Assembly: GCA_021787845.1 (NCBI GenBank)
Contig: JAJYLH010000034.1
Span: 1 to 59,897 of the forward strand
Direction: 5' to 3'
Source: Myxococcales bacterium
GTDB taxonomy: Bacteria; Myxococcota; Myxococcia; Myxococcales; JAJYLH01
DNA length: 59,897 nt
Under the pieces are notes generated by a model. The model worked only from the letters and a program-made list of their open reading frames with translations. It did not search any database and was not told the DNA's origin. Below are positions 8,006 through 51,348 of this stretch, piece after piece. How positions within the stretch are numbered: the first letter of the stretch is position 1; each line of letters starts with the position of its first letter. The position numbers and the translations under genes are program-made.

Positions 8006-8512
8006 TCAGCGGGGCCAAGACAGAGGCGCCCTCGGTCGGCACCGCTCACCGGTCGGCGGACTTGCCGGCGATGTGGGATGACGTGGGGAACTCGAAGCAA
8101 CGACGCCCGAGACGGGCGGCGGGGGTCCGGGAACCGCTGGCGGGGCTCCGATCGCCGTCGGCGAGATTCCGGTGGCTCCGGGCGAGATTCCGGTGGCTCC
8201 GGGCGGGATTCCGGTGGCTCCGGGCGAGATTCCGGTGGCTCCAGGCGGGATTCCGGTTACTGTCGGCGGGATTCCGGTGGCTCCGGGCGGGATTCCGGTG
8301 GCTCCGGGCGAGATTCCGGTGGCTCCGGGCGAGATTCCGGTGGCTCCGGGCGGGATTCCGGTGGCTCCGGGCGAGATTCCGGTGGCTCCGGGCGAGATTC
8401 CGGTGGCTCCGGGCGGGATTCCGGTTACTGTCGGCGGGATTCCGGTTACTGTCGGCCGGAATCCGGTTACTGTCGGCCGGAATCCGGTCACTGTGGCCAG
8501 ATTCCGGTTCAT
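8006..8512 (-). CDS. Heptapeptide-repeat protein (Gly/Pro/Thr-rich, possible)
   Basis: This 168-residue frame begins at an ATG with a good Shine-Dalgarno (GAGAGG, 6 bases before). It consists mainly of ~16 tandem heptads of the form TGI(P/S)PGA, with a few TV in place of GA, then a Pro/Ser/Arg-rich tail. There is no signal peptide or recognised domain. It lies 79 bp downstream of the phosphorylase gene on the same strand. The 21-bp DNA period keeps all frames open, so coding is not proven. The plus strand also reads as heptads (GEIPVAP), but without a comparable start. It could be a real low-complexity protein or a non-coding minisatellite. Confidence 0.4.
   Translation of the reverse strand: MNRNLATVTGFRPTVTGFRPTVTGIPPTVTGIPPGATGISPGATGISPGATGIPPGATGISPGATGISPGATGIPPGATGIPPTVTGIPPGATGISPGATGIPPGATGISPGATGISPTAIGAPPAVPGPPPPVSGVVASSSPRHPTSPASPPTGERCRPRAPLSWPR
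8163..8510. repeat. 21-bp minisatellite (~17 units)
   Basis: About 17 tandem copies of a 21-bp unit, GGCGAGATTCCGGTGGCTCC plus G, run without interruption. The main variation is GAG versus GGG before ATTCCGG and GTTACTGTC versus GTGGCTCCG after it. The period stays a multiple of three throughout. There are no spacers, so this is not a CRISPR array. Confidence 0.9.
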
Positions 8513-11283: not shown

Positions 11284-11317
11284 TCAGACCGATCGGTCGG
11301 ATCGGTCGGATCGGACC
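11284..11317. repeat. 9-bp-unit palindromic array, copy 2
   Basis: CAGACC is followed by two and a half GATCGGTCG units and ends GATCGGACC. It lies in the 337-bp divergent gap (11181-11517) between glgP and the acyl-CoA dehydrogenase. That gap shows no other recognised feature. Confidence 0.8.
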
Positions 11318-13430: not shown

Positions 13431-13470
13431 GATCGGACTGATCAGTCGGATCCGACCGATCGGTCTGATC
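13431..13470. repeat. 9-bp-unit palindromic array, copy 3
   Basis: GATCGGACT, GATCAGTCG, GATCCGACC and GATCGGTCT units are arranged as two inverted halves, followed by GATC. The array sits directly upstream of the 71-bp tandem repeat, between the convergent acyl-CoA dehydrogenase and diaminohexanoate dehydrogenase genes. Confidence 0.8.
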
Positions 13471-13634
13471 GGCAGACAGGCGCGCCTCACCGCGGATCCA
13501 TTCGACGACCCGCCGGGCGCGGTCGGCCGATCGGTCTGACCGGCAGACAGGCGCGCCTCACCGCGGATCCATTCGACGACCCGCCGGGCGCGGTCGGCCG
13601 ATCGGTCTGACCGGCAGGCAGGCGCGCCTCACCC
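13471..13634. repeat. 71-bp tandem repeat, ~2.3 copies
   Basis: The unit starts GGCAGACAGGCGCGCCTCAC at 13471, again at 13542, and as GGCAGGCAGGCGCGCCTCAC at 13613, so the period is exactly 71 bp. The first two units are almost identical. Each ends with GGCCGATCGGTCTGA, that is, the core of the 9-bp palindromic element. It fills most of the 310-bp gap 13357-13666, and no gene is seen. Confidence 0.9.
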
Positions 13635-17093: not shown

Positions 17094-17130
17094 CGATCGG
17101 ACCGATCGGTCGGATCAGACCGATCGGTCA
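17094..17130. repeat. 9-bp-unit palindromic array, copy 4
   Basis: GATCGGACC, GATCGGTCG, GATCAGACC and GATCGGTCA units occur in mixed orientation in the convergent gap between trxB and lpxC. Confidence 0.8.
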
Positions 17131-25367: not shown

Positions 25368-25396
25368 AGCGGTCCTGCCCCCCCTCGGGTGCGCGC

Positions 25397-25432
25397 GATC
25401 GGACCGATCGGTCGGATCCGTCGGATCGGTCT
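25397..25432. repeat. 9-bp-unit palindromic array, copy 5
   Basis: GATCGGACC, GATCGGTCG, GATCCGTCG and GATCGGTCT units occur between the convergent DHH-phosphoesterase gene and the helical-protein gene. Confidence 0.8.
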
Positions 25433-36120: not shown

Positions 36121-36160
36121 ATCAGACCGATCGGTCGGATCGGTCGGATCGGTCTGATCA
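36121..36160. repeat. 9-bp-unit palindromic array, copy 6
   Basis: TCAGACCGATC, then GGTCGGATC twice, then GGTCTGATCA. The outer TCAGACCGATC and GATCGGTCTGA are exact inverted repeats. It lies between the NtrC-type regulator and the CBS protein, in a 292-bp gap with nothing else recognised. Confidence 0.85.
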
Positions 36161-41749: not shown

Positions 41750-41806
41750 CGAAGAGCGCAGCCGGCGAGCTCTTCGACGAACGGGGCGTTGCTCGGCAAG
41801 CCGAGC
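41750..41806 (+). terminator. Two consecutive hairpins after the PocR regulator gene
   Basis: CGAAGAGC and GCTCTTCG form an 8-bp stem (41750-41776). GCTCGGC-AA-GCCGAGC (41791-41806) is a perfect 7-bp stem. Neither has a T-run, so termination is only suggested. Confidence 0.35.
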
Positions 41807-41893
41807 TTGCGGCCGCGGTCGCAAAAGAGGTTCGCCTTGCGAGGCGAAGGCGGCCTATCCTCGCGCCTCCATCTGGCTGCCGGAGCCGCTCAA

Positions 41894-42817
41894 ATGCCCC
41901 TCGCCTCGACCGCGCCCCAAGACCTCGCCCCGTCGTCCCCGACCTTCACCACCGACGGCTACACGCACAGCCGTGACGGGACCCGGCTGCACTACTACAC
42001 GCTCGGCGAGGGCGCTCCCGCCCTCGTCTGCTGCGACGGGCTCGGCTGCGATGGGTACGTCTGGAAGTACATCGCCGAAGAGTTTTCCCCGGCGCACCAG
42101 GTGGTGCGCTTCCACTATCGCGGGCACGGCAAGTCGGACCCGCCCGCCGATCGATCGCACCTGCACATCGCCGACCTGGTCGACGACGTCGCCTGTGTGA
42201 TGGACCAGAACGGCGTCGAGAAGGGCGTGCTCCTCGGCCACTCCCTGGGCGTCCAGGTGATTCTCGAGTTCCACCGCCGCTATCCAGAACGGGTGCAGGG
42301 GCTCGTCCCGACTTGCGGCACCTACGGGCGGGTGGTGGACACCTTCCGCGACAACCCGATGTCGCGCCACGCCTTCGGGCTCCTCAACCACCTCGTGCAC
42401 CGGTTTCCCGGCGCCGCGCAGCGGGTCTGGAGCATCTTCGGAACCGACCTCGCCTACACGGTCGCGACGCACACCGAGGTCAACGGCGACCTGCTCAAGC
42501 GCGAGGACTTCCAGCCCTACCTGAAGCACATGTCGAAGATGGACGTGAAGCTGTTCTTCGACCTCGCTTCCGACGCCGCCGAGAACGACAACCTCGCCCA
42601 CCTGAGCGAAATCGACGTGCCGACCTTGATCATCGCCGGCGAGAGGGACGGCTTCACGCCGGAATGGCTCTCGCACGTGATGCACGCGCGCATCCCCGGC
42701 AGCGAGCTGTTGATGGTTCCGGGCGGCACCCACACCGCGCCCATCGAGGTGCCCGACCTGGTCGACCTGCGCCTCAAGCGGTGGCTGGACGAGCGCGTGC
42801 GGCCGACCCTCGCTTAG
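41894..42817 (+). CDS. Alpha/beta hydrolase
   Basis: This 307-residue protein has the alpha/beta-hydrolase fold with nucleophile Ser117 in LLGHSLGVQ. The acid Asp lies in AGERDGFTP and the catalytic His in VPGGTHTAP near residue 285. An oxyanion-type segment CDGLGCDGYVW and RFHYRGHGKSD precede the nucleophile. A ~75-residue cap runs from RVVDTFRDN to the strand before GERDG. The substrate is unknown: ester or C-C bond hydrolysis is typical. The ATG at 41894 is chosen because the upstream 35 codons run through hairpins and show no family similarity. It may be controlled by the upstream PocR regulator. Confidence 0.85.
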   Translation: MPLASTAPQDLAPSSPTFTTDGYTHSRDGTRLHYYTLGEGAPALVCCDGLGCDGYVWKYIAEEFSPAHQVVRFHYRGHGKSDPPADRSHLHIADLVDDVACVMDQNGVEKGVLLGHSLGVQVILEFHRRYPERVQGLVPTCGTYGRVVDTFRDNPMSRHAFGLLNHLVHRFPGAAQRVWSIFGTDLAYTVATHTEVNGDLLKREDFQPYLKHMSKMDVKLFFDLASDAAENDNLAHLSEIDVPTLIIAGERDGFTPEWLSHVMHARIPGSELLMVPGGTHTAPIEVPDLVDLRLKRWLDERVRPTLA

Positions 42818-42845: not shown

Positions 42846-42957
42846 CGTGGAGTCCTGGACCGCTCACCCCGAGCCACTGAGCCGCGAAGTCTTGTCGGTG
42901 CGCGCAGATCCTCACGGCGCGGGTCCAACCCCCGCTCAGCCCGAGCGCGGTCGAGGG
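42846..42957. repeat. Fragment of dispersed repeat (TCCTGGACCGCTCACC block)
   Basis: TCCTGGACCGCTCACCC and the following bases match 57393-57420 and, inverted, 19622-19645. A CCGAGCGCGGTCGAGGGATG block resembles the arm motif at 6838-6917. It fills the space between the hydrolase and the gluzincin gene, and reaches the chosen start codon of the latter. Confidence 0.5.
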
Positions 42958-45867
42958 ATGGGCGTGACGGTCCGGGCGACCAGAAGAGGTTCGAGCCGGT
43001 CCATTCCGGATGCGCGCGCTCGCTCGGCGGGGCTGGCGCTGGCTGCCGTGCTCGTCCTGGCGACCGGGACCGCTCTCGCACAGCCTTACGACCCGTCGCT
43101 CCATTTCTCGACCCTGAAGACGCCGCACTTTCTCATCCACTTCCATCAAGGCGAGGAGCCGCTCGCGCAAGCCGTCGCGCGCGCGGCGGAAGCGGCGAAC
43201 CTGCTGCTCGTACCGCTCCTCGGCCACCAGCCCTCCGAGCCGACGCACATCCTCCTCGTCGACGTCGACGACTCGGCGAACGGCTACGCGACGCCGGTTC
43301 CGCGCAACACCATCGAGCTGCTCGCCGCGCCGCCGGATTCCCGCGGCGAGCTCAACCAGTTCCAGGACTGGCTCTGGCAGCTCATCGTCCACGAATACAC
43401 CCACGTCTTGCACCTGGACACCATCCGCGGGCCGGCCCGGATCCTCAACGCGATCTTCGGCAAGTCGCTCTCCCCCAACGACGCCTGGCCGCACTGGTTC
43501 TTGGAAGGGCTCGCGGTCTACGACGAGTCCACCCTCTCCCGGGGCGGGCGGCTCAAGAGCGCGCTGTTCGACATGGAGCTGCGCGAACAGATCTTGGGAG
43601 GGAGAGCGCTGTCGCTCTCCAGGCTGTCGAACGCGCCGCTCGAATGGCCGTACGATGACGCCTGGTACCTCGACGGCTCGCACTTCCTCGACTACCTCGC
43701 CCAGCGCCACGGCATGGCGTCGATTCGTGGCATCTCGCAGGAGAACGCCGGAACCTGGATTCCCTACTTCTTGAACACCATCGCCCTGGACCAGACCGGA
43801 GACTCTTTTCGGGCGATGTACCGCGACTGGCTCCAAGCGATGCGAACGCGCTACCTGGCGCAAGTCCGCGCGCTCGGGCCGCTGACGCCGGAAAGGCGCT
43901 TGACCTTCGACGGGCAGGGGCGGATTTCGCCGCGCGCCTCGCCGGACGGACGCACCATCTACTCGATCCTTGCCGATGCCGATGCCCGTCCCCGGCTGAT
44001 GGCTTTCGACATCGCGTCGGGCACGGAACGCGCGGTCGTCGACGTGAACGACCTCGGCGGGCTCGCCGTCCTTCCCGACGGCCGGGTGCTACTCGCGCAA
44101 ACCGAGATCGCTCACAACTACGAGGCGTACCAGGACCTCTTCGTCGTCGATCCCGCGCGCGGCTCGTTCGAACAGCTCACCCACGGCGCGCGGCTGAGCG
44201 ACCCCGACGTCGCCACCGACGGGCGGGTGGTCGCCGTCCAACGGGTCGGGCCCGGCCGCACCGCCATCGTCCTCTTCCCCTCGCTCGAACAGGCGAGCCG
44301 GCCGGGACGGGTGCTGGTCGAAGCGAGCGATCTCGAGCCAGTCGCGACCCCGCGTTTCTCCCCCGACGGCCGGCAGCTCGTCTACGCCATCCATCGCGGC
44401 CTCTCGTTCGACCTACAGATCCTCGACCTCGCCACCGGCACCCGCACCGACCTCACCCACGACGATGCCCAGGACATCGAGCCATCCTTTACCGCTGACG
44501 GGAAGCAGGTGCTCTTCAGCTCCGACCGCGGCGGCGTCTTCGACGTGTGCGAAATCGACCTCGCGACGCGCGCGCTCACCCGGTTGACGAACGTCGCCGG
44601 CGGCGCGTTCGAACCCCTGTTCGCCGGCGGCCGGCTCTACTACCTCGGCTACGGCGCGGCCGGCTGGGACCTCGCCCGCGAGAACGGAAAGCCCTCTCGC
44701 CTACCGGCACCGCCGCCGCCGACTATCTCCGGTCCCGCCTTGCCCGCGGCGCTGTCGGCGAAGACGCGCTATCCGGTCCACCGCTACTCGCCTCTTCCGA
44801 CCCTGTGGCCGCAGCTCTGGCTGCCGACGATCGGCGCCGACCCGGCCGGAACCACCCTCGGCCTCCTGGTCGAAGGCGCCGACGTCCTCGACGACTACGA
44901 GTACAACGCCCAGGCGTGGTGGAGCCTCGGCGCGAAGGAGCCCGACTTCGCCGTCGCGGCTCTGACCAACGCCATCGCCCCCACCGTCGAGCTCGACGCG
45001 AGCCGCACCCTCGACCTGGTCCCGGGAGCGCCCAAGGATTACGTGGAGCGGACCACCACCGCTCGCGCGCTCGCGACCTGGTATTTCCGGCGCTTCTACA
45101 GCTCGTCGGCGCTCAGCGTCGGCTACCAGCTCTCGCAGCTCTCCCCCGCCCTCGTCCCCGAGCTCAAGCCCTCCGGCCCACCGCTACCGGAGCAGGGACG
45201 CCTGGCGACCGCCCTCCTCGGCTTCTCCTTCTCCAACGCGCTCAGCTTCATCGACTCGATCTCGCCCGAACAGGGGCGCAGCCTCTCCCTGACCCTACGT
45301 GGCTCGGCACCGCTCCTGGGAAGCGACTTCACCACCGCGAGCGTCGACGGCGCCTGGACCGAGTACCTCCGGGTCCCCCTCCCGTTTCGCCGGCCGACCC
45401 ATCACGTCCTCGCCCTCCACCTCGCCGGCGGGCTCTCCCTCGGCGCTCTCGGTGGACGACAGCGCTTCGGCCTGGGAGGACCGAGCACGGTCAACGTCCT
45501 CTCTGACGCGCTGGCGCTCCAGAGCCCTTCGACGCTCCTGCGCGGCTATCCGGCGGACTTCATGAGCGGCCGCGCCTTCGTCCTCGCGAGCGCCGAGTAC
45601 CGCTTTCCCCTCTTCGCGCCCGAGCTCGGCTACTCCACCTTTCCGTTGCAGCTCCGGCGCGTCTTCGGCGCGGCCTTCGTCGACTCCGGCGAGGCGTTCA
45701 CCGGGCCATTCCACCTCGACCGGATGCACACCGGCATCGGTGCCGAGCTGCGGCTCGAGCTGGTCCTCGGCTACGACCTTTCGACCGTGCTGCGCGTGGG
45801 CTACGCCCGCGGCCTCGACCGCGGCGGCGAGAACCAGCTCCTCCTGCTCTTCGGAGCGAGCTACTGA
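42958..45867 (+). CDS. Outer-membrane gluzincin / TolB-type propeller / beta-barrel fusion
   Basis: This 969-residue protein has a signal peptide (SAGLALAAVLVLATGTALA, ending near residue 41). The peptidase domain carries HEYTH at 145-149 with a downstream Glu183 in WFLEGLAVY, the HExxH...E set of gluzincins (M1/M4-like). Residues ~330-600 contain WD40/TolB repeats (ISPRASPDGRTIYS, PRFSPDGRQLVYA, PSFTADGKQVLFSSDRGG). The final ~300 residues are amphipathic strands similar to Omp85/surface-antigen barrels, ending LLLLFGASY with the aromatic C terminus of barrel proteins. A surface- or periplasm-facing protease anchored by its own barrel is inferred. The start at 42958 is tentative because repeat sequence lies upstream. 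Confidence 0.8.
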   Translation: MGVTVRATRRGSSRSIPDARARSAGLALAAVLVLATGTALAQPYDPSLHFSTLKTPHFLIHFHQGEEPLAQAVARAAEAANLLLVPLLGHQPSEPTHILLVDVDDSANGYATPVPRNTIELLAAPPDSRGELNQFQDWLWQLIVHEYTHVLHLDTIRGPARILNAIFGKSLSPNDAWPHWFLEGLAVYDESTLSRGGRLKSALFDMELREQILGGRALSLSRLSNAPLEWPYDDAWYLDGSHFLDYLAQRHGMASIRGISQENAGTWIPYFLNTIALDQTGDSFRAMYRDWLQAMRTRYLAQVRALGPLTPERRLTFDGQGRISPRASPDGRTIYSILADADARPRLMAFDIASGTERAVVDVNDLGGLAVLPDGRVLLAQTEIAHNYEAYQDLFVVDPARGSFEQLTHGARLSDPDVATDGRVVAVQRVGPGRTAIVLFPSLEQASRPGRVLVEASDLEPVATPRFSPDGRQLVYAIHRGLSFDLQILDLATGTRTDLTHDDAQDIEPSFTADGKQVLFSSDRGGVFDVCEIDLATRALTRLTNVAGGAFEPLFAGGRLYYLGYGAAGWDLARENGKPSRLPAPPPPTISGPALPAALSAKTRYPVHRYSPLPTLWPQLWLPTIGADPAGTTLGLLVEGADVLDDYEYNAQAWWSLGAKEPDFAVAALTNAIAPTVELDASRTLDLVPGAPKDYVERTTTARALATWYFRRFYSSSALSVGYQLSQLSPALVPELKPSGPPLPEQGRLATALLGFSFSNALSFIDSISPEQGRSLSLTLRGSAPLLGSDFTTASVDGAWTEYLRVPLPFRRPTHHVLALHLAGGLSLGALGGRQRFGLGGPSTVNVLSDALALQSPSTLLRGYPADFMSGRAFVLASAEYRFPLFAPELGYSTFPLQLRRVFGAAFVDSGEAFTGPFHLDRMHTGIGAELRLELVLGYDLSTVLRVGYARGLDRGGENQLLLLFGASY

Positions 45868-45920
45868 CGGTCGAGAGGCCGCGTCTTCTGTGAAGGTCCT
45901 GGGCGCGGGTTGCCACAGAA

Positions 45921-45960
45921 CCGACCGATCCGACCGATCCGACCGATCGGTCCGATCGTC
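45921..45960. repeat. 9-bp-unit palindromic array, copy 7
   Basis: Three CGACCGATC units followed by GGTCCGATCGTC in inverted orientation lie between the gluzincin and transporter genes. A weaker single unit (CGACCGATCGGA) is visible at about 39311. Confidence 0.8.
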
Positions 45961-45982: not shown

Positions 45983-48901
45983 ATGGCGCCGATGCCTTCG
46001 GGCCTGGACCGCTTCCTCGACCGCGCGCTGAAAATCCGCCCGGGCGAGGCCGGACGCGTCGGGCTGATGGCCCTCTATTCGTTCTTCGCCATCGGCGCGC
46101 TCATCGTCGGCCGCACCGCCCGCGACGCGCTCTTCCTCGCCGACCTCCCCCAGGACCACGTCAAGCGCGACCTCGCCGCGATGTACATCGCGAACGCGGT
46201 GACCGTCGCGCTCCTGAGCTGGGGCTACTCCCGGGTCGCCGACCGCATCCGCCGCGACAAGCTCAACGCCCTCTTCGCCCTCGGCTGGGCCGCGGCGATG
46301 GCCGCCTTCTTCCTCCTCGTCACCGACCGCCCGCGCACCTTCGCGCCGCTGCTCTACGTCTCGGTCGAAGGGATGGGCGCCCTCGTCGTCATCCAGTTCT
46401 GGACCTTTGCCCAGGACGTCTTCAACGCCCGCGAAGCCAAGCGCCTCTTCGGCATCGTCGGCGCCGGCGGGCAGGTCGCGAACATCGTCTACGGCTTCCT
46501 CGCCGGCTCTATCGCTAAGCGCGTCAACCCCGAGTCGCTGCTCTTTCTCGTCGCCTTGAACCTCGTCGCCTGTGCCGTCCTCGCCCTCGCCATCGGCCGC
46601 CGCTATCCCGCCTCGACGCCGTCGCACCCGAGGCCGCACCCCAAGCCGAGCAAGAGCGGTTCCAAAGGCCAGACCGTCCGCGGGCTCGCGAGCCGCCACC
46701 TCGTGCTCCTCGCCGCGCTGGCGGTGGTCACCACCCTCGCGGTGCGCCTCGTCGACTTCCAGTTCAAGGCCGCGGCCGACGTCCGCTTCGCCACCGCCGC
46801 CGGAGTCGACAAGCACGCGCTCGGCGCCTTCTTCGGCCAGTTCTACGGCACCGTCGGCGTCGCCGCGCTCGCCATCCAGATGCTGGTCACCGGAAGGATG
46901 CTGGAGCGCTTCGGCATCCTGGCATCGCTCCTGCCCCTCCCCATCGGCCTCGCCGGGGGCACCCTCCTCGCCGCCGTCTGGCCGGGCGGCTGGGCGATGA
47001 GCCTCGCCAAGGGCTCGGACTCGATGTTCCGCTACACCTTGAACGACGCCTCGACCCAGCTTCTCTACGTGCCGGTCCCGGCCCACCAGCGCGGCCGCGT
47101 GAAAGCCATCGTCGACGGGCTCCTGAAACCCCTCGCCGGCGTCCTCGCGGGATTGCTGCTGATCGCCATCGGGCACTACGAGCACCTGGGGCCGCTCTTT
47201 CACCACGCCCGAGGCGACCTCGCGACGACCGCGCTGATCGTGCTCTTCGTCGTCGGCTGGATCGCCCTGCTCTTCCCAGCCCGCCGCCAATACGTCCGCT
47301 CCCTCCTCGACACCCTCCAGCGCCGCCGCCTCGACCTCCAATCCACCCCCATCGCCGTCGACCAGGCGACCCAGGACGCCCTCGCCAAGGTCCTGCGCGG
47401 TCCCGACACGCTCGCCATCCTGCACGCCCTGGCGCTCCTCCCCGAGGCCGGCGGGCGCGACTTCGCTCCGCTCGTCGCCGAGCTCCTCGACCACCCGGTC
47501 TCGAGCGTGCGCGCCGCCGCGACCGACCATTTCGCCGAGGTCCCGGACGGGCGCTATGCCGACTCGATCCGCGCGCGGCTGCGCGACCGCGACCCGTGGT
47601 GCGTGGCGAGCGCCATCGGCGCCTTGTGCGCCCTGGAGAGGGAAAGCGCTCTCGCCGAGGTCGAGCCGCTGCTCTTGGATCCGCGTCCGGGCATCCGCGC
47701 CGCCGTCGTCATCGGTCTGTTCAAGCACGGGGGGCCCCAAGGGGCGCGCGCGGCCAACGCCGCCCTGGAACGGCAGATGAACGCGACCTCCCGCGCCGAG
47801 CGCGAGCTCGCCGCCAGCGTTCTCGGAGAGCTGCAAGCGCTCCCGCTAGCCACGGAGACCCTGCCGAAGTTCCTGGACGATCCGAGCCCCAGCGTCCGCC
47901 GCGCCGCCCTCCAGTCGGCCGCGCGTCTGAAGGACCCCCGCCTCGTGCCCCACCTCGCGCGCCTGTGCGGCCAGAGCCCGACCGCACGGGAGGCCGCCAA
48001 TGCCCTGGTCGCGTTCGGCCCCGGCATCGAAGACCAGCTCGCGGCGACGATGGCCGACCCGAGCGCTGAGCTCGGCGTCCGGGAGGCGATGGCGCTGGTG
48101 CTCGGCAGGCTGGGGACCGGTACCGCTGCTGAACGGCTCCAGGAAGCGCTGGCGAACGGCGAGCCGGCGATGCGCGCGGCGGCGGCGGGCGCGCTCGCTC
48201 GGCTGGCACGCCGGCATCCCGAGGCGCGAGGCCGTCCAGACCTCGTCAACCGGGCGGTCGTTTCGGAGCTCGATCTCGCCGAGCACCTGGTCGACGTCCA
48301 CACGGCGCTCTCCTTGCCCCAGGTCGAGCGTTCGGCGCCGCTCACGGCGCCGCGCGGCCAGGGCGCCCGGGAGTTGCTCGCGCTCGCGCTGCTGGAGGAG
48401 CGCGAACGGGCGATCGAACGCGCCATCGTGCTGCTCGAGCTGTTGTACCCCCGGGCGCACCTGGACGTGGTCGCCGACAACCTGCGCGCCGACGAATCGG
48501 CCCGCCGCGCGAACGCGGTCGAGGTGCTGGACAACACCGTTCACGAGGAGCTCAAGAAGCGGCTGCTGCCGCTCCTCGAGGGTCGCCTCCACCGGACACC
48601 GCCGCCCAAACGCCCGCCGGAGCAATGGCTCGCGGGCCTCCTCGCGGGGCAGAACCCGTGGATTGCGGCGTGTGCCGCCCAGCTCGCGTTCGAGCGCGGC
48701 CTCGTCGAGTCCTCGCAGTCGCTGTCGGACGGGGTGAAATCGCCGGTCGCGTTCGTCCGAGAAGCGTGCGCGAACGCCCTGGCGCGCCTCAATCCGGCGA
48801 TGGCGAAACCGCTCCTGGAGAGCTTGCAGACCGACGACTCGCCTGCGGTCCGCCGAGTCGCCGAGGGTGCCCTGGTCCTCACCCGGCTCGCGTCGGCGTA
48901 G
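45983..48901 (+). CDS. Nucleotide-transporter (NTT/Npt-like) protein fused to HEAT repeats
   Basis: This 972-residue protein has about 11-12 membrane helices in residues 1-430, resembling the ATP:ADP antiporter/MFS-like Npt family. Markers are ARDALFLADLP in the first loop, FNAREAKRLFGIVGAGGQ before the fifth helix, and DASTQLLYVPVPAHQRGRVK. Residues ~450-970 are a helical solenoid of HEAT-like repeats (for example DDPSPSVRRAALQSAARLKD, PVSSVRAAATDHFAEV, SPVAFVREACANALARLN). Npt proteins exchange or import nucleotides; HEAT-fused relatives are uncharacterised and need not carry ATP. An ATG 9 bases downstream is an alternative start. A cNMP-binding protein gene is the convergent neighbour. Confidence 0.8.
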   Translation: MAPMPSGLDRFLDRALKIRPGEAGRVGLMALYSFFAIGALIVGRTARDALFLADLPQDHVKRDLAAMYIANAVTVALLSWGYSRVADRIRRDKLNALFALGWAAAMAAFFLLVTDRPRTFAPLLYVSVEGMGALVVIQFWTFAQDVFNAREAKRLFGIVGAGGQVANIVYGFLAGSIAKRVNPESLLFLVALNLVACAVLALAIGRRYPASTPSHPRPHPKPSKSGSKGQTVRGLASRHLVLLAALAVVTTLAVRLVDFQFKAAADVRFATAAGVDKHALGAFFGQFYGTVGVAALAIQMLVTGRMLERFGILASLLPLPIGLAGGTLLAAVWPGGWAMSLAKGSDSMFRYTLNDASTQLLYVPVPAHQRGRVKAIVDGLLKPLAGVLAGLLLIAIGHYEHLGPLFHHARGDLATTALIVLFVVGWIALLFPARRQYVRSLLDTLQRRRLDLQSTPIAVDQATQDALAKVLRGPDTLAILHALALLPEAGGRDFAPLVAELLDHPVSSVRAAATDHFAEVPDGRYADSIRARLRDRDPWCVASAIGALCALERESALAEVEPLLLDPRPGIRAAVVIGLFKHGGPQGARAANAALERQMNATSRAERELAASVLGELQALPLATETLPKFLDDPSPSVRRAALQSAARLKDPRLVPHLARLCGQSPTAREAANALVAFGPGIEDQLAATMADPSAELGVREAMALVLGRLGTGTAAERLQEALANGEPAMRAAAAGALARLARRHPEARGRPDLVNRAVVSELDLAEHLVDVHTALSLPQVERSAPLTAPRGQGARELLALALLEERERAIERAIVLLELLYPRAHLDVVADNLRADESARRANAVEVLDNTVHEELKKRLLPLLEGRLHRTPPPKRPPEQWLAGLLAGQNPWIAACAAQLAFERGLVESSQSLSDGVKSPVAFVREACANALARLNPAMAKPLLESLQTDDSPAVRRVAEGALVLTRLASA

Positions 48902-48935
48902 ATGTCGGCCCAACTCCTGGCGCTTCAACTCAACC

Positions 48936-49015
48936 CGTCGGATGGATGAAGCGCAGCGGAGCCCATCGGCGACGGCCTCGTTCGAGGGGCTGCGCTACGC
49001 TCCGCCCATCCGACG
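48936..49015. repeat. REP-like imperfect palindrome
   Basis: CGTCGGATGGATGAAGCGCA and the complement of CGTCGGATGGGCGGAGCGTA flank a central segment. It forms a long imperfect hairpin in the convergent gap between the transporter-HEAT gene and the cNMP-binding protein gene. Confidence 0.65.
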
Positions 49016-49065
49016 GCTCGACTTGACGCGCTCAATGGTTTGCGATGCCTTGGCGGCGCGAGCCC

Positions 49066-49157
49066 CCCGGGGGTTCCTTTTTCGGACGCGTTCTCACGGG
49101 TTGCAGTTTACTGCAGCCACCGTCGATGAGGCCGCAGAACATGCATTATACTGCCGG
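49066..49157. repeat. Dispersed ~90-bp element, copy A
   Basis: It shares ordered blocks with 15712-15800: GGGGGTTCCTTTTTCG, a perfect palindrome TGCAGTTTACTGCA at 49102-49115, and AACATGC followed by TATACTGCCGG. Copy B lies immediately upstream of sppA, but no gene starts next to this copy, so it behaves as a repeat rather than a dedicated promoter. Confidence 0.5.
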
Positions 49158-49204
49158 ACGCGATCTCGGCGTCGGAAAAGGACACCCCGACCGCCGGGCG
49201 CTCC

Positions 49205-49627
49205 TCAGCGCGCCCGGACGTTGGCCTCGCGCAGCCGCCGGCTGAGCACCTTGATGATGCCGAGGGAAATCTCCGGGCGCTCGGCGAGGATGTCGCGAAA
49301 GTCCTCCCGCCCGATTTTCAGGAGCAACGCTTCCGAGAGGGACGACACCGAGGCGCTGCGCGGCTCCGAGTCGAGCACGCTCATCTCGCCGAAGCACTCG
49401 CGTTCCCCCAACTCGGCCAACGCCTGCTCGCCGCGGTGAACCCGCACCCGACCCTCGACCACGATGTAGAGGGCGTCGCCCGGCTCGCCTTCCGAGAAGA
49501 CCATCTCGCCCTCGCCGACCAGGATCTCCTCCGCGATCTCCGCGATCTGCGCCAGGTCCTCCCCGGGCAACGCACGAAACAGATCGATCGATTTCAGGAA
49601 GAGGACTTTTTCGACGGTGGTGATCAC
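49205..49627 (-). CDS. Cyclic-nucleotide-binding domain protein
   Basis: This 140-residue protein is a single CRP-type beta-roll domain: [20 protein letters not shown] (about 44-63) and the phosphate-binding cassette [16 protein letters not shown] (about 78-93). The Arg and Glu that contact cAMP/cGMP are in place. A helical C-terminal tail of about 30 residues follows, with no helix-turn-helix, so it is not itself a transcription factor. It may act as a detached regulatory subunit. The neighbouring transporter has the HEAT part but no such domain, while related proteins combine these modules, so a functional pair is plausible. Confidence 0.88.
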
Positions 49628-49743
49628 GTGCCGCGGGTCCGCCCGAGGGAAAGACGCGCGAACGTAGCACGCAGCCCGCCGACAAGACGAGCGACGAGGC
49701 CGCGTTGACGGTCCCGCGCGGGGCGCCGTATGGTCCGCCGCCG

Positions 49744-49944
49744 ATGCGGCTCAAGGTCAACGGCGAAGAGCGGGTCGTCGCGGACGGCGCCACGATTCTC
49801 GGCCTCTTGGAGTCCCTGGGCCTCGAGCCGGAGCGCGTCGCCGTCGAGCGAAACCGCCTCCTCTGCCGCCGCGCCTCGTGGGCCGACACCGTCCTCCAAG
49901 ACGGCGACGAAGTCGAAGTCCTCACCTTCGTCGGCGGCGGCTGA
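49744..49944 (+). CDS. thiS: Sulfur carrier protein ThiS
   Basis: This 66-residue ubiquitin-fold protein carries sulfur as a C-terminal thiocarboxylate for thiazole formation in thiamine synthesis. The start [11 protein letters not shown] and the body [20 protein letters not shown] are typical. The essential C-terminal Gly-Gly is present (FVGGG). It is 22 bp upstream of thiG on the same strand. Neither a ThiF-type activating enzyme nor a TPP riboswitch was seen nearby. Confidence 0.92.
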
Positions 49945-49966
49945 CGCCCTTGCAGGAGCCCTCCCG

Positions 49967-50743
49967 ATGGAAGACATGCCTCTCGTTCTGGGAAAGCGCA
50001 CCTACTCTTCGCGGCTGATCATCGGCACCGGGAAGTACGCCGACTATTCCACGATGAAGGAGGCGCTGACCGCGTCGGGCGCGCAGCTCGTGACGGTGGC
50101 GCTGCGCCGGGTCGACCTCGCCGCGAAAGGCGAGCAATCGCTCTTCCACTGGCTGCCGGAGGGGATGACGGTCCTGCCCAACACCGCCGGCTGCCGCACT
50201 TCCGAGGAGGCCGTCCGCACCTGCCGGCTCGCCCGCGAGCTGGCCCTGGGCGACCTCGTCAAGCTGGAGGTGATCGGGGACCCGAAGACGCTCTTTCCCG
50301 ATGTGGAGGAGACCCTCGCCGCCGCGCGCATCCTGGTGAAGGACGGCTTCACCGTCCTGCCCTACCTCATCGACGACCCGATCGCCGCGAGGAAGCTGGA
50401 GGACCTCGGCTGCGCCGCGGTGATGCCGCTCGCAGCGCCCATCGGCAGCGGTCTCGGTATCCGAAATCCCTACAACCTGGCGCTCATCCTCGAGCAGGCA
50501 CAGGTGCCGGTCATCGTCGACGCGGGCGTGGGGACCGCCTCCGACGCCGCGGTCGCCCTGGAGCTCGGCTGCGACGGGGTGCTGATGAACACCGCCATCG
50601 CCCTCGCGCGGGAGCCCCAGCGGATGGCGCGCGCGATGAAGCTCGCGGTCGAGGCCGGGCGGCAGGCGTTTCTCGCCGGGCGGATGCCGAAGAAGCTCTA
50701 CGCGTCCGCCTCCTCGCCGATCGAGGGCCTATTGCCTCGGTGA
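49967..50743 (+). CDS. thiG: Thiazole synthase
   Basis: This 258-residue TIM-barrel enzyme condenses deoxyxylulose 5-phosphate, dehydroglycine and ThiS-thiocarboxylate to the thiazole phosphate. Conserved blocks include [10 protein letters not shown], the RRVDL segment, [53 protein letters not shown] and [16 protein letters not shown]. The active-site Lys lies in VKLEVIGD. The ATG at 49967 follows CAGGAG. Its last four bases overlap the start of thiE, indicating translational coupling. Confidence 0.96.
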
Positions 50744-51348
50744 TTCCGCGCGTCTTCATCATCACCGACCGGGCCGTCGCGCCCGAGCCGGCGCCGACGC
50801 TCGCGCCGGTTCTCTCGGTGCTGCCGCCGGGCGAGACCGCTGTCGTCCTGCGTGAAAAGGATCTCCCGGTCCGGGAACACCTCGCCCTCGGCCGGGCGTT
50901 GCGCGCGCTGACGAAGAGCCATGGCGCTCTTCTCATCATCGCCGGCCGGCTGGACCTCGCGCTCGCGTGCGGGGCCGATGGCGTCCACTTCGGCCGAGAG
51001 GCGCCCTCGTCCGAGGACGCGCGCCCGTTGCTGCCGACGTCGATGCTGGTCGGATCGTCGATCCACGCGGGGGAGCCGGCACCGCTCCTGGCGAGCTACG
51101 CCTTCCTGAGCCCGATCTTCCCGACCTCGTCCAAGCCGTTGGCGGCGCCGCTCGGCCTCGACGGCTTGCGGGCCACGGCCCAGCGCTCGCGGACTCCCCT
51201 GGTCGCGCTGGGAGGCATCGACGAGTCGAACGCGGGCCGCTGCCTGGACAGCGGCGCTTCTGCGGTGGCGCTGCGTAGCCGCCTCTTAGGAGCGGATCGG
51301 CTCCGTGCCGCGCGCGCGCTGGCCGAAATCATCGCTTCGCGCCCCTAG
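50740..51348 (+). CDS. thiE: Thiamine-phosphate synthase (ThiE/TenI family)
   Basis: This 202-residue TIM-barrel protein starts with a GTG within GTGA shared with the thiG stop. It keeps VFIITDR at the N terminus, [15 protein letters not shown], the pyrophosphate-binding [10 protein letters not shown] and [10 protein letters not shown]. ThiE joins HMP-pyrophosphate and thiazole phosphate. Some residues are less conserved than in canonical ThiE (VVLREKDL instead of the usual QLR-K, and no clear CLIVND), so a TenI aromatase role remains possible. Its stop overlaps the convergent glycosyltransferase stop by 4 bases. Confidence 0.82.

Follow-up and report, generated by a model that had tools for sequence, protein, structure and literature searches.

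A split NTT-HEAT / cNBD gene pair in convergent orientation in a Myxococcales genome

The window (the whole stretch of Myxococcales DNA analysed, 59,897 nucleotides) carries a gene pair that belongs, in split form, to the known NTT-HEAT / cNBD family: one gene encodes a membrane protein with a C-terminal HEAT solenoid, the other a lone cNMP-binding domain (cNBD). Judging from sequence features, we consider with moderate confidence that the pair is a putative cyclic-nucleotide-controlled MFS carrier of an anion other than ATP/ADP. The pairing is of a known kind, since NTT-HEAT and NTT-HEAT-cNBD proteins, with the cNBD adjacent or fused, were published in 2017 by Major, Embley and Williams (PMC5381601). 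According to the available text of that paper, the family is mostly bacterial, including Deltaproteobacteria, Chlamydiae and cyanobacteria, occurs also in oomycetes, and contains fusions whose functions are called unknown. A literature search found no later functional test of NTT-HEAT fusions, and no characterised carrier of the NTT-HEAT/cNBD kind was among the literature matches listed. New here are a rare turned cNBD gene beside a palindrome, the loss of two nucleotide-binding lysines in all 36 aligned NTT-HEAT proteins, and an outer-membrane-type protein (PROP) upstream in 19 of 72 loci. The features of the locus are collected in the table.

Features of the NTT-HEAT / cNBD locus (positions in the window)
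Feature	Position	Strand	Basis or remark
HYD, upstream conserved neighbour	41789..42817	+	
PROP, upstream conserved neighbour: HExxH motif, PD40 propeller, Omp85-like barrel, 1006-aa frame	42847..45867	+	
NTT-HEAT gene, 972 aa	45983..48901	+	ATG at 45983, Pfam, AlphaFold2 model
Membrane part, residues 1-447, 12 long helices, NTT/MFS fold	45983..47323	+	model, fold match, profile match
HEAT solenoid, residues 461-971	47363..48895	+	Pfam, model
Palindrome, 49-nt arms, 80% complementary, dispersed repeat of the genome, between the two genes	48920..49031	.	
Terminator-like stem 3' of NTT-HEAT gene	49060..49076	+	pattern scan only
Terminator-like stem 3' of cNBD gene	49186..49198	-	pattern scan only
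Lone cNBD gene, 140 aa, GTG start, tail to tail with NTT-HEAT gene	49205..49627	-	PF00027, partner-profile match
Phosphate-binding cassette of the cNBD (16 residues)	49346..49393	-	E81 and R90 in 14/14

The NTT-HEAT protein and its substrate-site residues

Pfam searches with the longer open frame starting at 45740 returned the TLC ATP/ADP transporter (E 3.9e-13), MFS_1 (E 3.5e-10) and HEAT_2 (E 4.3e-25) families. In an AlphaFold2 model of the protein (mean pLDDT 89.4, pTM 0.81), 12 long helices lie, by our count, between residues 23 and 447, and residues 461-971 form a helical solenoid. The fold closest to the membrane part was that of ADP/Pi-bound AtNTT1 (9j3m; Z 38.7, rmsd 3.1, 416 residues aligned, 18% identity); other MFS carriers (LacY, SV2A, MelB) in the same list reach Z 28-31, as high as some NTT entries, and nothing on membership is concluded from this. 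A profile built from 20 membrane parts matched 9j3n (E 1e-25) and 9j3j (E 8.6e-24). Model and fold match together identify the 12-helix NTT fold, and the arrangement that defines the NTT-HEAT family, an NTT domain and then C-terminal HEAT repeats, is present by Pfam and in the model. The score of the protein with NCBIfam TIGR00769 (47.4 bits) is below the 387.2-bit cut-off. These results bear out the description in an earlier note on this DNA, an Npt/ATP-ADP-antiporter-like part followed by HEAT repeats, and its figure of "over 500 residues" for the repeats is correct, the solenoid running for ~510 residues C-terminal to the membrane part. In a FastTree phylogeny the protein (P0001) sits among split NTT-HEATs with support 0.988 and the fused set forms one clade (support 1.0); three of the 36 NTT-HEATs (L124, L130, L131) and the C105 copy group with single-domain relatives (supports 0.277 to 0.961).

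Alignment of the 36 NTT-HEAT proteins with the canonical controls CpNTT1 and AtNTT1 showed that neither of the nucleotide-binding lysines of AtNTT1, a plant carrier, is retained. The K155 column holds Y in 33 proteins, I in 2 and F in 1, and the K527 column is never K; the window's protein has Y68 and G386 at these positions. K155 is the lysine of the PFLKTW motif, which three MAFFT settings concordantly align to Y68. R47 was ruled out as the K155 equivalent, as it aligns with the TKD lysine, K136 of AtNTT1. K382, which lies 4 residues ahead of the K527 position and is K in 28/36 proteins and R in 5/36, might stand in for K527. The E245 position of AtNTT1 is occupied by E129 (acidic in 33/36 proteins; E 32, D 1) and that of E385 by D258, a conservative change found in 36/36; with K262 (36/36) and K374 (35/36) these make up a set of strongly constrained charged positions in the membrane part. 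The single-domain relatives L030-L034, where readable, are also without K155, K527 and E385 and therefore provide no ATP/ADP controls.

As far as the available text of PMC3306366 goes, the AtNTT1 mutant K155R no longer binds ADP and binds ATP only weakly, and K527E or K527R abolishes ATP binding or nearly so, ADP still being bound by the K527 mutants. The substrate cannot be read from single residues, because the microsporidian ThNTT1 and ThNTT3 differ at positions 155, 245 and 385, K527 by implication being kept (available text of PMC4256464). The absence of K155 and K527 equivalents suggests that NTT-HEAT proteins may move or sense something other than ATP/ADP. The lysine loss is seemingly not discussed by Major et al., since "residue", "lysine" and "K527" do not occur in the available text of PMC5381601.

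That text contains the suggestion of a true nucleotide exchanger (ATP/ADP or ADP/Pi), its rate adjusted by cAMP through the cNBD. The AtNTT1-like fold and the acidic residues kept as E129 and D258 speak for such an exchanger, but the loss of both lysine equivalents throughout the alignment, at positions where AtNTT1 mutants lose ADP or ATP binding (available text of PMC3306366), makes it unlikely. The missing lysines would also suit the earlier note's idea taken in its strong form, a membrane sensor or scaffold that transports nothing, with the MFS part as receptor and the HEAT arm and cNBD relaying the signal; the long solenoid joined to a ligand domain, and the HEAT-type and HD_5-type proteins that continue the cluster in 13/40 class loci (own profiles, with Pfam on one example each), point the same way. 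We consider this rather improbable, however, as the near-invariant charged carrier positions suggest a working translocation path, even if a receptor could need such positions too. A carrier of another anion remains the reading that we prefer.

The cNBD gene, its orientation and its association in relatives

The next gene encodes, as the earlier note had it, a lone cNMP-binding domain: PF00027 matches the 140-aa frame with E 2.8e-22 and 78.9 bits (gathering score 27.5). What that note left unmentioned is the gene's orientation: it is encoded on the minus strand and converges on the NTT-HEAT gene, ~300 bp away. Domain searches found no kinase or DNA-binding part in the chain, and its sequence matches among solved chains are PKG, PKA-R and CRP-family proteins. 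In the phosphate-binding cassette, glutamate E81 and arginine R90 are kept in 14/14 aligned cNBDs, the window's domain being 53-71% identical to the 13 others. The protein is also the top match in the genome to cNBDs adjoining relatives' genes (236 bits; the runner-up, with 123 bits, is the fused copy). Four class III cyclase matches (PF00211) were found in the genome.

Gene-neighbour conservation, one of the checks proposed in the earlier note, was assessed by profile searches. NTT-HEAT profile matches (E <=1e-20) occur in 117/147 class genomes, split and fused kinds together. The neighbour count left out genomes with matches <600 bits, which are of the fused kind or, in G019 and G024, fragments of the split kind. 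Forty loci were kept, and in two of them (G138, G104) the contig stops <=130 bp from the gene, leaving 38 assessable genomes, our own included. A cNBD was counted if it scored >100 bits, or >45 bits at a contig end. In 34/38 the two genes are co-directional neighbours, with the cNBD gene no more than 403 bp downstream; in 2/38 the strand is the same but the distance is 3.1-3.8 kb, and in 2/38 the orientation is opposite. These counts rule out a chance neighbourhood. Outside the class, 32 of 35 matching genomes were used (broken hits in G147, G160 and G193 were left out), and for G159, which has two copies, L183 with an adjoining cNBD was counted and L184 without a downstream one was not. A downstream cNBD (>100 bits) was not found in 15/30 assessable genomes there, one of them at a contig end; hence the partner is not universal at this place.

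Proteins with all the domains in one chain, which the earlier note had mentioned, do exist: a fused NTT-HEAT-cNBD frame (C95) is present in the same genome, 7/7 examined relatives of this paralog are fused, with 8 further hits outside this count, and fusions are described in the available text of PMC5381601. Relatives thus have both neighbouring genes and fused versions, the two things on whose absence the earlier note would have given up its idea. A structure model of the natural fusion L131 (pTM 0.69) does not place the cNBD, because the linker residues have pLDDT <50.

In the class the cNBD normally has a gene of its own, and to this extent the earlier note's "detached" is apt; taken to mean that the two genes are not co-directional, the word applies only to this genome and G145 among the 38. 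Since the two genes are on opposite strands, an operon is ruled out in this genome: they are not co-transcribed, and the partners must arise from separate transcripts. The intergenic palindrome belongs to a repeat found at ~40 places in the genome, a draft assembly of 153 contigs, and both facts would suit an assembly error that turned the cNBD gene at the repeat. We hold this to be very doubtful: the repeat pattern occurs once in the whole window, between the two genes, and thus does not flank the cNBD gene on both sides, and G145, from another family, has the identical convergent order with the rest of the cluster kept. Least probable of all is that the association was lost, leaving the NTT-HEAT protein alone and the cNBD as an independent regulator, for despite the convergent order, the terminator-like sites on both strands and the missing downstream cNBDs outside the class, the genes remain adjacent and the cNBD keeps its score with the partner profile and its identity to the others.

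Proposed mechanism and comparison with known systems

In the preferred reading, the membrane part, a relative of nucleotide transporters, would act as an MFS-type carrier, with the HEAT solenoid as its docking arm. The separate cNBD protein would bind cAMP or cGMP and, docked on the solenoid, would open or close the carrier, whose substrate is most likely an anionic solute and not ATP/ADP. The analysis shows the domains, the fold, the gene association, the fused forms, the conserved charged residues and ligand cassette, and the class III cyclase matches; this docking, the signal, transport itself and the nature of the substrate are inferred. The earlier note had proposed a nucleotide-sensing platform "rather than a simple carrier"; the latter phrase gains some support because both AtNTT1 nucleotide-binding lysines are missing, and the cassette Glu/Arg kept throughout would suit a sensing role.

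The upstream neighbours allow a wider and tentative proposal, on the unlikely side when taken as a whole. PROP, an outer-membrane-type HExxH-propeller-barrel protein, lies upstream in the 19/72 loci of the phylum (Myxococcota); it is not mentioned in the available text of PMC5381601. A relative of HYD (L036) matches alpha/beta hydrolase families. The HEAT-type protein X had no match in our own genome in a search with a single query protein and without a positive control. The pair might be the inner-membrane and cytosolic half of a trans-envelope system in which PROP, as an outer-membrane metallopeptidase, might release or admit a phosphorylated or otherwise anionic compound, the non-ATP/ADP NTT-HEAT carrier (a tandem pair in some lineages) might take it over the inner membrane, the cNBD might gate the carrier by cAMP/cGMP, and the HEAT/HD_5 pair could be a further signalling link. 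The absence of K155 and K527 predicts that the NTT-HEAT group owes its name to a misleading analogy with ATP/ADP carriers. The cNBD and the outer-membrane-type proteins, conserved as neighbours, offer concrete candidate partners for these widespread proteins.

Three known systems lend themselves to comparison. AtNTT1 (9j3j/l/m) and CpNTT1 (9j3n/o) have the fold (over 416 residues for 9j3m), K262, K374 and D378 in common with the window's NTT-HEAT protein, which differs in having Y68, G386 and the large C-terminal HEAT arm. The cAMP/cGMP-binding domains of PKG, the PKA regulatory subunit and the CRP family share PF00027 and the cassette E81/R90 with the window's cNBD, whereas the latter is a chain of 140 aa in which no kinase or DNA-binding part was found. 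With the family of Major et al. (2017; available text of PMC5381601) the pair shares the domain set and order and the cNBD as next gene or fused, but in the window the two genes are on different strands.

Domain architecture of the two proteins

The NTT-HEAT gene, starting with an ATG, encodes a 972-residue protein in which Pfam recognized the TLC ATP/ADP transporter, MFS_1 and, over four stretches, HEAT_2. The NCBIfam NTP/NDP exchange transporter model scored it at 47.4 bits, against a far higher cut-off of 387.2. In the AlphaFold2 model (alignment of 36 sequences; mean pLDDT 89.4, pTM 0.81), we counted 12 long helices between residues 23 and 447, followed by a helical solenoid spanning residues 461-971. 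An earlier note had described an NTT-like membrane part followed by over 500 residues of HEAT repeats, and both Pfam and the model bear this out. The best fold fit to the membrane part was the ADP/Pi-bound form of AtNTT1, the studied plant ATP/ADP carrier (9j3m; Z 38.7, rmsd 3.1 over 416 residues); LacY, MelB and other MFS carriers matched with Z of 28-31.

The next gene, as that note had also proposed, encodes a lone cNMP-binding domain (cNBD; 140 residues, Pfam). Its conservation is high, with a mean column identity of 74% among 14 sequences; the N-terminal motif VLFLKS is among the conserved stretches, and the glutamate and arginine of the cassette are kept in all 14. A search of the source genome with the partner profile placed the window's cNBD on top (236 bits), ahead of a fused copy (123) and nine others at 88 or less. 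The same genome has four class III cyclase matches, suggesting that it could make cyclic nucleotide. ThiG and thiamine-phosphate-synthase genes, divergent from the cNBD gene, lie just beyond it.

Features of the window
Feature	Position	Strand	Remarks
21-nt/63-nt units	8160-8509		tandem array, score up to 448
Arrays of 9-nt unit near GATCGGTCG	654-715, 11291-11314, 13431-13472, 17094-17129, 25396-25431, 36129-36159, 45920-45957		last one just 5' of NTT-HEAT gene
PROP	42847-45867		upstream of NTT-HEAT; HExxH then EG, PD40 repeats, Omp85-like match; large, outer-membrane-type
NTT-HEAT	45983-48901	+	membrane part and HEAT repeats
Palindrome, 112 bp	48920-49031		between NTT-HEAT and cNBD genes; member of dispersed repeat of own genome
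cNBD	49205-49627	-	cNMP-binding domain
ThiG and TMP-TENI genes	49730-51348		beyond cNBD gene

Orientation and conservation of the gene pair

In the window the two genes are convergent and about 300 bp apart. The palindrome between them belongs to a repeat of about 80-110 bp found, by eye, in at least about 40 distinct places (50 match rows, with 40 of 161 candidates scored). A pattern scan placed terminator-like stems on both strands of the gap; the scan of 4.5 kb gave five stems where shuffled sequence gave 2.1 on average, so this is weak evidence for terminators. Being convergent, the pair is not an operon in this genome.

At E up to 1e-20, a profile built from 13 NTT-HEAT proteins of the two-gene type found matches, split or fused, in 117 of the 147 genomes that represent the class Myxococcia; at E up to 1e-100, it matched 77 of 195 genomes of the phylum Myxococcota. 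Neighbours were counted at one locus in every class genome that matched the profile at 600 bits or more, 40 in all with the source genome; two loci end within 130 bp of the NTT-HEAT gene, leaving 38 assessable. The neighbourhood check called for by the earlier note came out in favour of the pair: in 34 of the 38, a cNBD gene comes next in the same orientation, at most 403 bp away (G065, counted here, has a fragment at a contig end). Two further loci have it on the same strand, 3.1 and 3.8 kb off, and two on the opposite strand, namely the window and G145, a genome of another family. Since the other neighbours of G145 (PROP upstream, the HEAT-type X and HD_5-type Y downstream) keep their strand, a single gene was turned there.

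Outside the class, 32 of the 35 genomes with a match were fetched. The cNBD gene lies directly downstream in nine, and 2.0-4.9 kb downstream, behind DUF1571-type and ROK-type genes, in six, five of which have a second NTT-HEAT gene. No downstream cNBD was found in 15, among them G150, which stops at a contig end, and G186, which has a cNBD in the opposite orientation 4 kb upstream; two had no room for the count. Beyond the phylum, the two genes are separated by 107 bp in L129 (Latescibacteria) and by 10 bp in L127 (rumen bacterium), and no cNBD was seen beside the NTT-HEAT genes of L130 and L132. The association is strong within the class and patchy beyond. Tandem NTT-HEAT pairs followed by DUF1571-type and ROK-type genes occur in L159, L160, L161, L165, L166 and L169, with a cNBD behind the cluster in five of these six loci (the contig of L159 ends first). 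NTT-HEAT matches in G143, G187, G159 and G170 each read through one stop codon.

Because flanks are unequal in length, counts of the other neighbours are lower bounds. Of the 40 class loci, 13 have PROP upstream on the same strand, no more than about 4 kb away, as do 6 of the 32 loci outside the class (19/72 in the phylum; contig-end fragments in G035, G041 and G153 included). HExxH is present in every listed PROP frame of at least 900 residues, the set judged; the Omp85-like match of the window's PROP (E 2.3e-4) is below cut-off, that of L036 above it. By their own profiles, X occurs downstream in 17 and Y in 13 of the 40 class loci, their types being based on Pfam for one example of each; a search with a single X protein as query did not find X in the source genome. 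HEAT-type proteins of about 600 residues and HD_5-type proteins of about 433 lie downstream of the cNBD in L046, L047, L149 and L190, and the HD_5 example of L047 weakly matches a c-di-GMP phosphodiesterase model.

Key NTT positions and fused forms

Four residues are described as important in AtNTT1: K155, E245, E385 and K527 (PMC10654386, PMC4256464). Adding 84 to the chain numbers of 9j3j yields E245, E385, K527 and, for the lysine of PFLKTW, 155. Among 36 NTT-HEAT proteins, a set that takes in the window's and, judging by record titles, members of other phyla, the K155 column holds Y in 33, I in 2 and F in 1 under three alignment settings; the K527 column I in 25, V in 4, Q in 4, and G (the window's), R and D once each; the E245 column E in 32, S in 2, D in 1 and G in 1; and the E385 column D in all 36. 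At 18% identity to AtNTT1, the alignment behind these columns can slip. Fused proteins have Y at K155 in 8/8 and K at K527 in 0/7 readable. According to PMC3306366, K155R abolishes ADP binding and weakens that of ATP, K527E and K527R lose ATP binding or nearly so and still bind ADP, and E245K binds with hardly any exchange. By this mutant standard, with both lysines absent, exchange of ATP for ADP would not be expected of NTT-HEAT proteins, even though they keep the acidic positions. K382, four residues from the K527 position, could stand in for that lysine, and K155 is missing from microsporidian ThNTT1 and ThNTT3 as well, with K527 by implication kept (PMC4256464). Yet other residues occupy the four sites in a third NTT-HEAT copy of the source genome (C105, L001) and in single-domain NTT-like frames (L030-L034).

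The C105 copy is truncated at a contig end. Another copy, C95, is a single NTT-HEAT-cNBD frame, as are all seven of its relatives fetched and checked (eight further matches fall outside this count), in keeping with the earlier note's statement that related proteins can carry such domains in one chain. In a tree of the membrane part, eight fused proteins group together (support 1.0), and their sister clade holds most split proteins, the window's included (0.949 for the pair). Since the fused L131 (Acidobacteria) is placed elsewhere, there may have been more than one fusion event; many deeper nodes of the tree are weak. The model of L131 (pLDDT 84.8, pTM 0.69) has a folded cNBD and linker stretches under 50; given this low linker confidence, it neither supports nor refutes docking.

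A putative regulated carrier and its known counterparts

Alongside the observed domain order, fold, association, fusion, cassette and lysine loss, we lean slightly towards a carrier controlled by cyclic nucleotide. The cNBD subunit would dock on the HEAT arm, its presumptive ligand, cyclic nucleotide, would gate the carrier, and the MFS-type membrane part would move an anion other than ATP/ADP.

The pairing is of a kind already described: Major et al. 2017 (PMC5381601) reported NTT-HEAT proteins with the cNBD either encoded next door or fused to them, and proposed control by cAMP, an account repeated in a 2019 review (PMC6995639). No functional study of any NTT-HEAT protein was among the literature matches listed, a set that covers a minority of subscription papers. 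As far as searched, the turned cNBD gene, the absence of both lysines and the surrounding PROP, X and Y genes are new.
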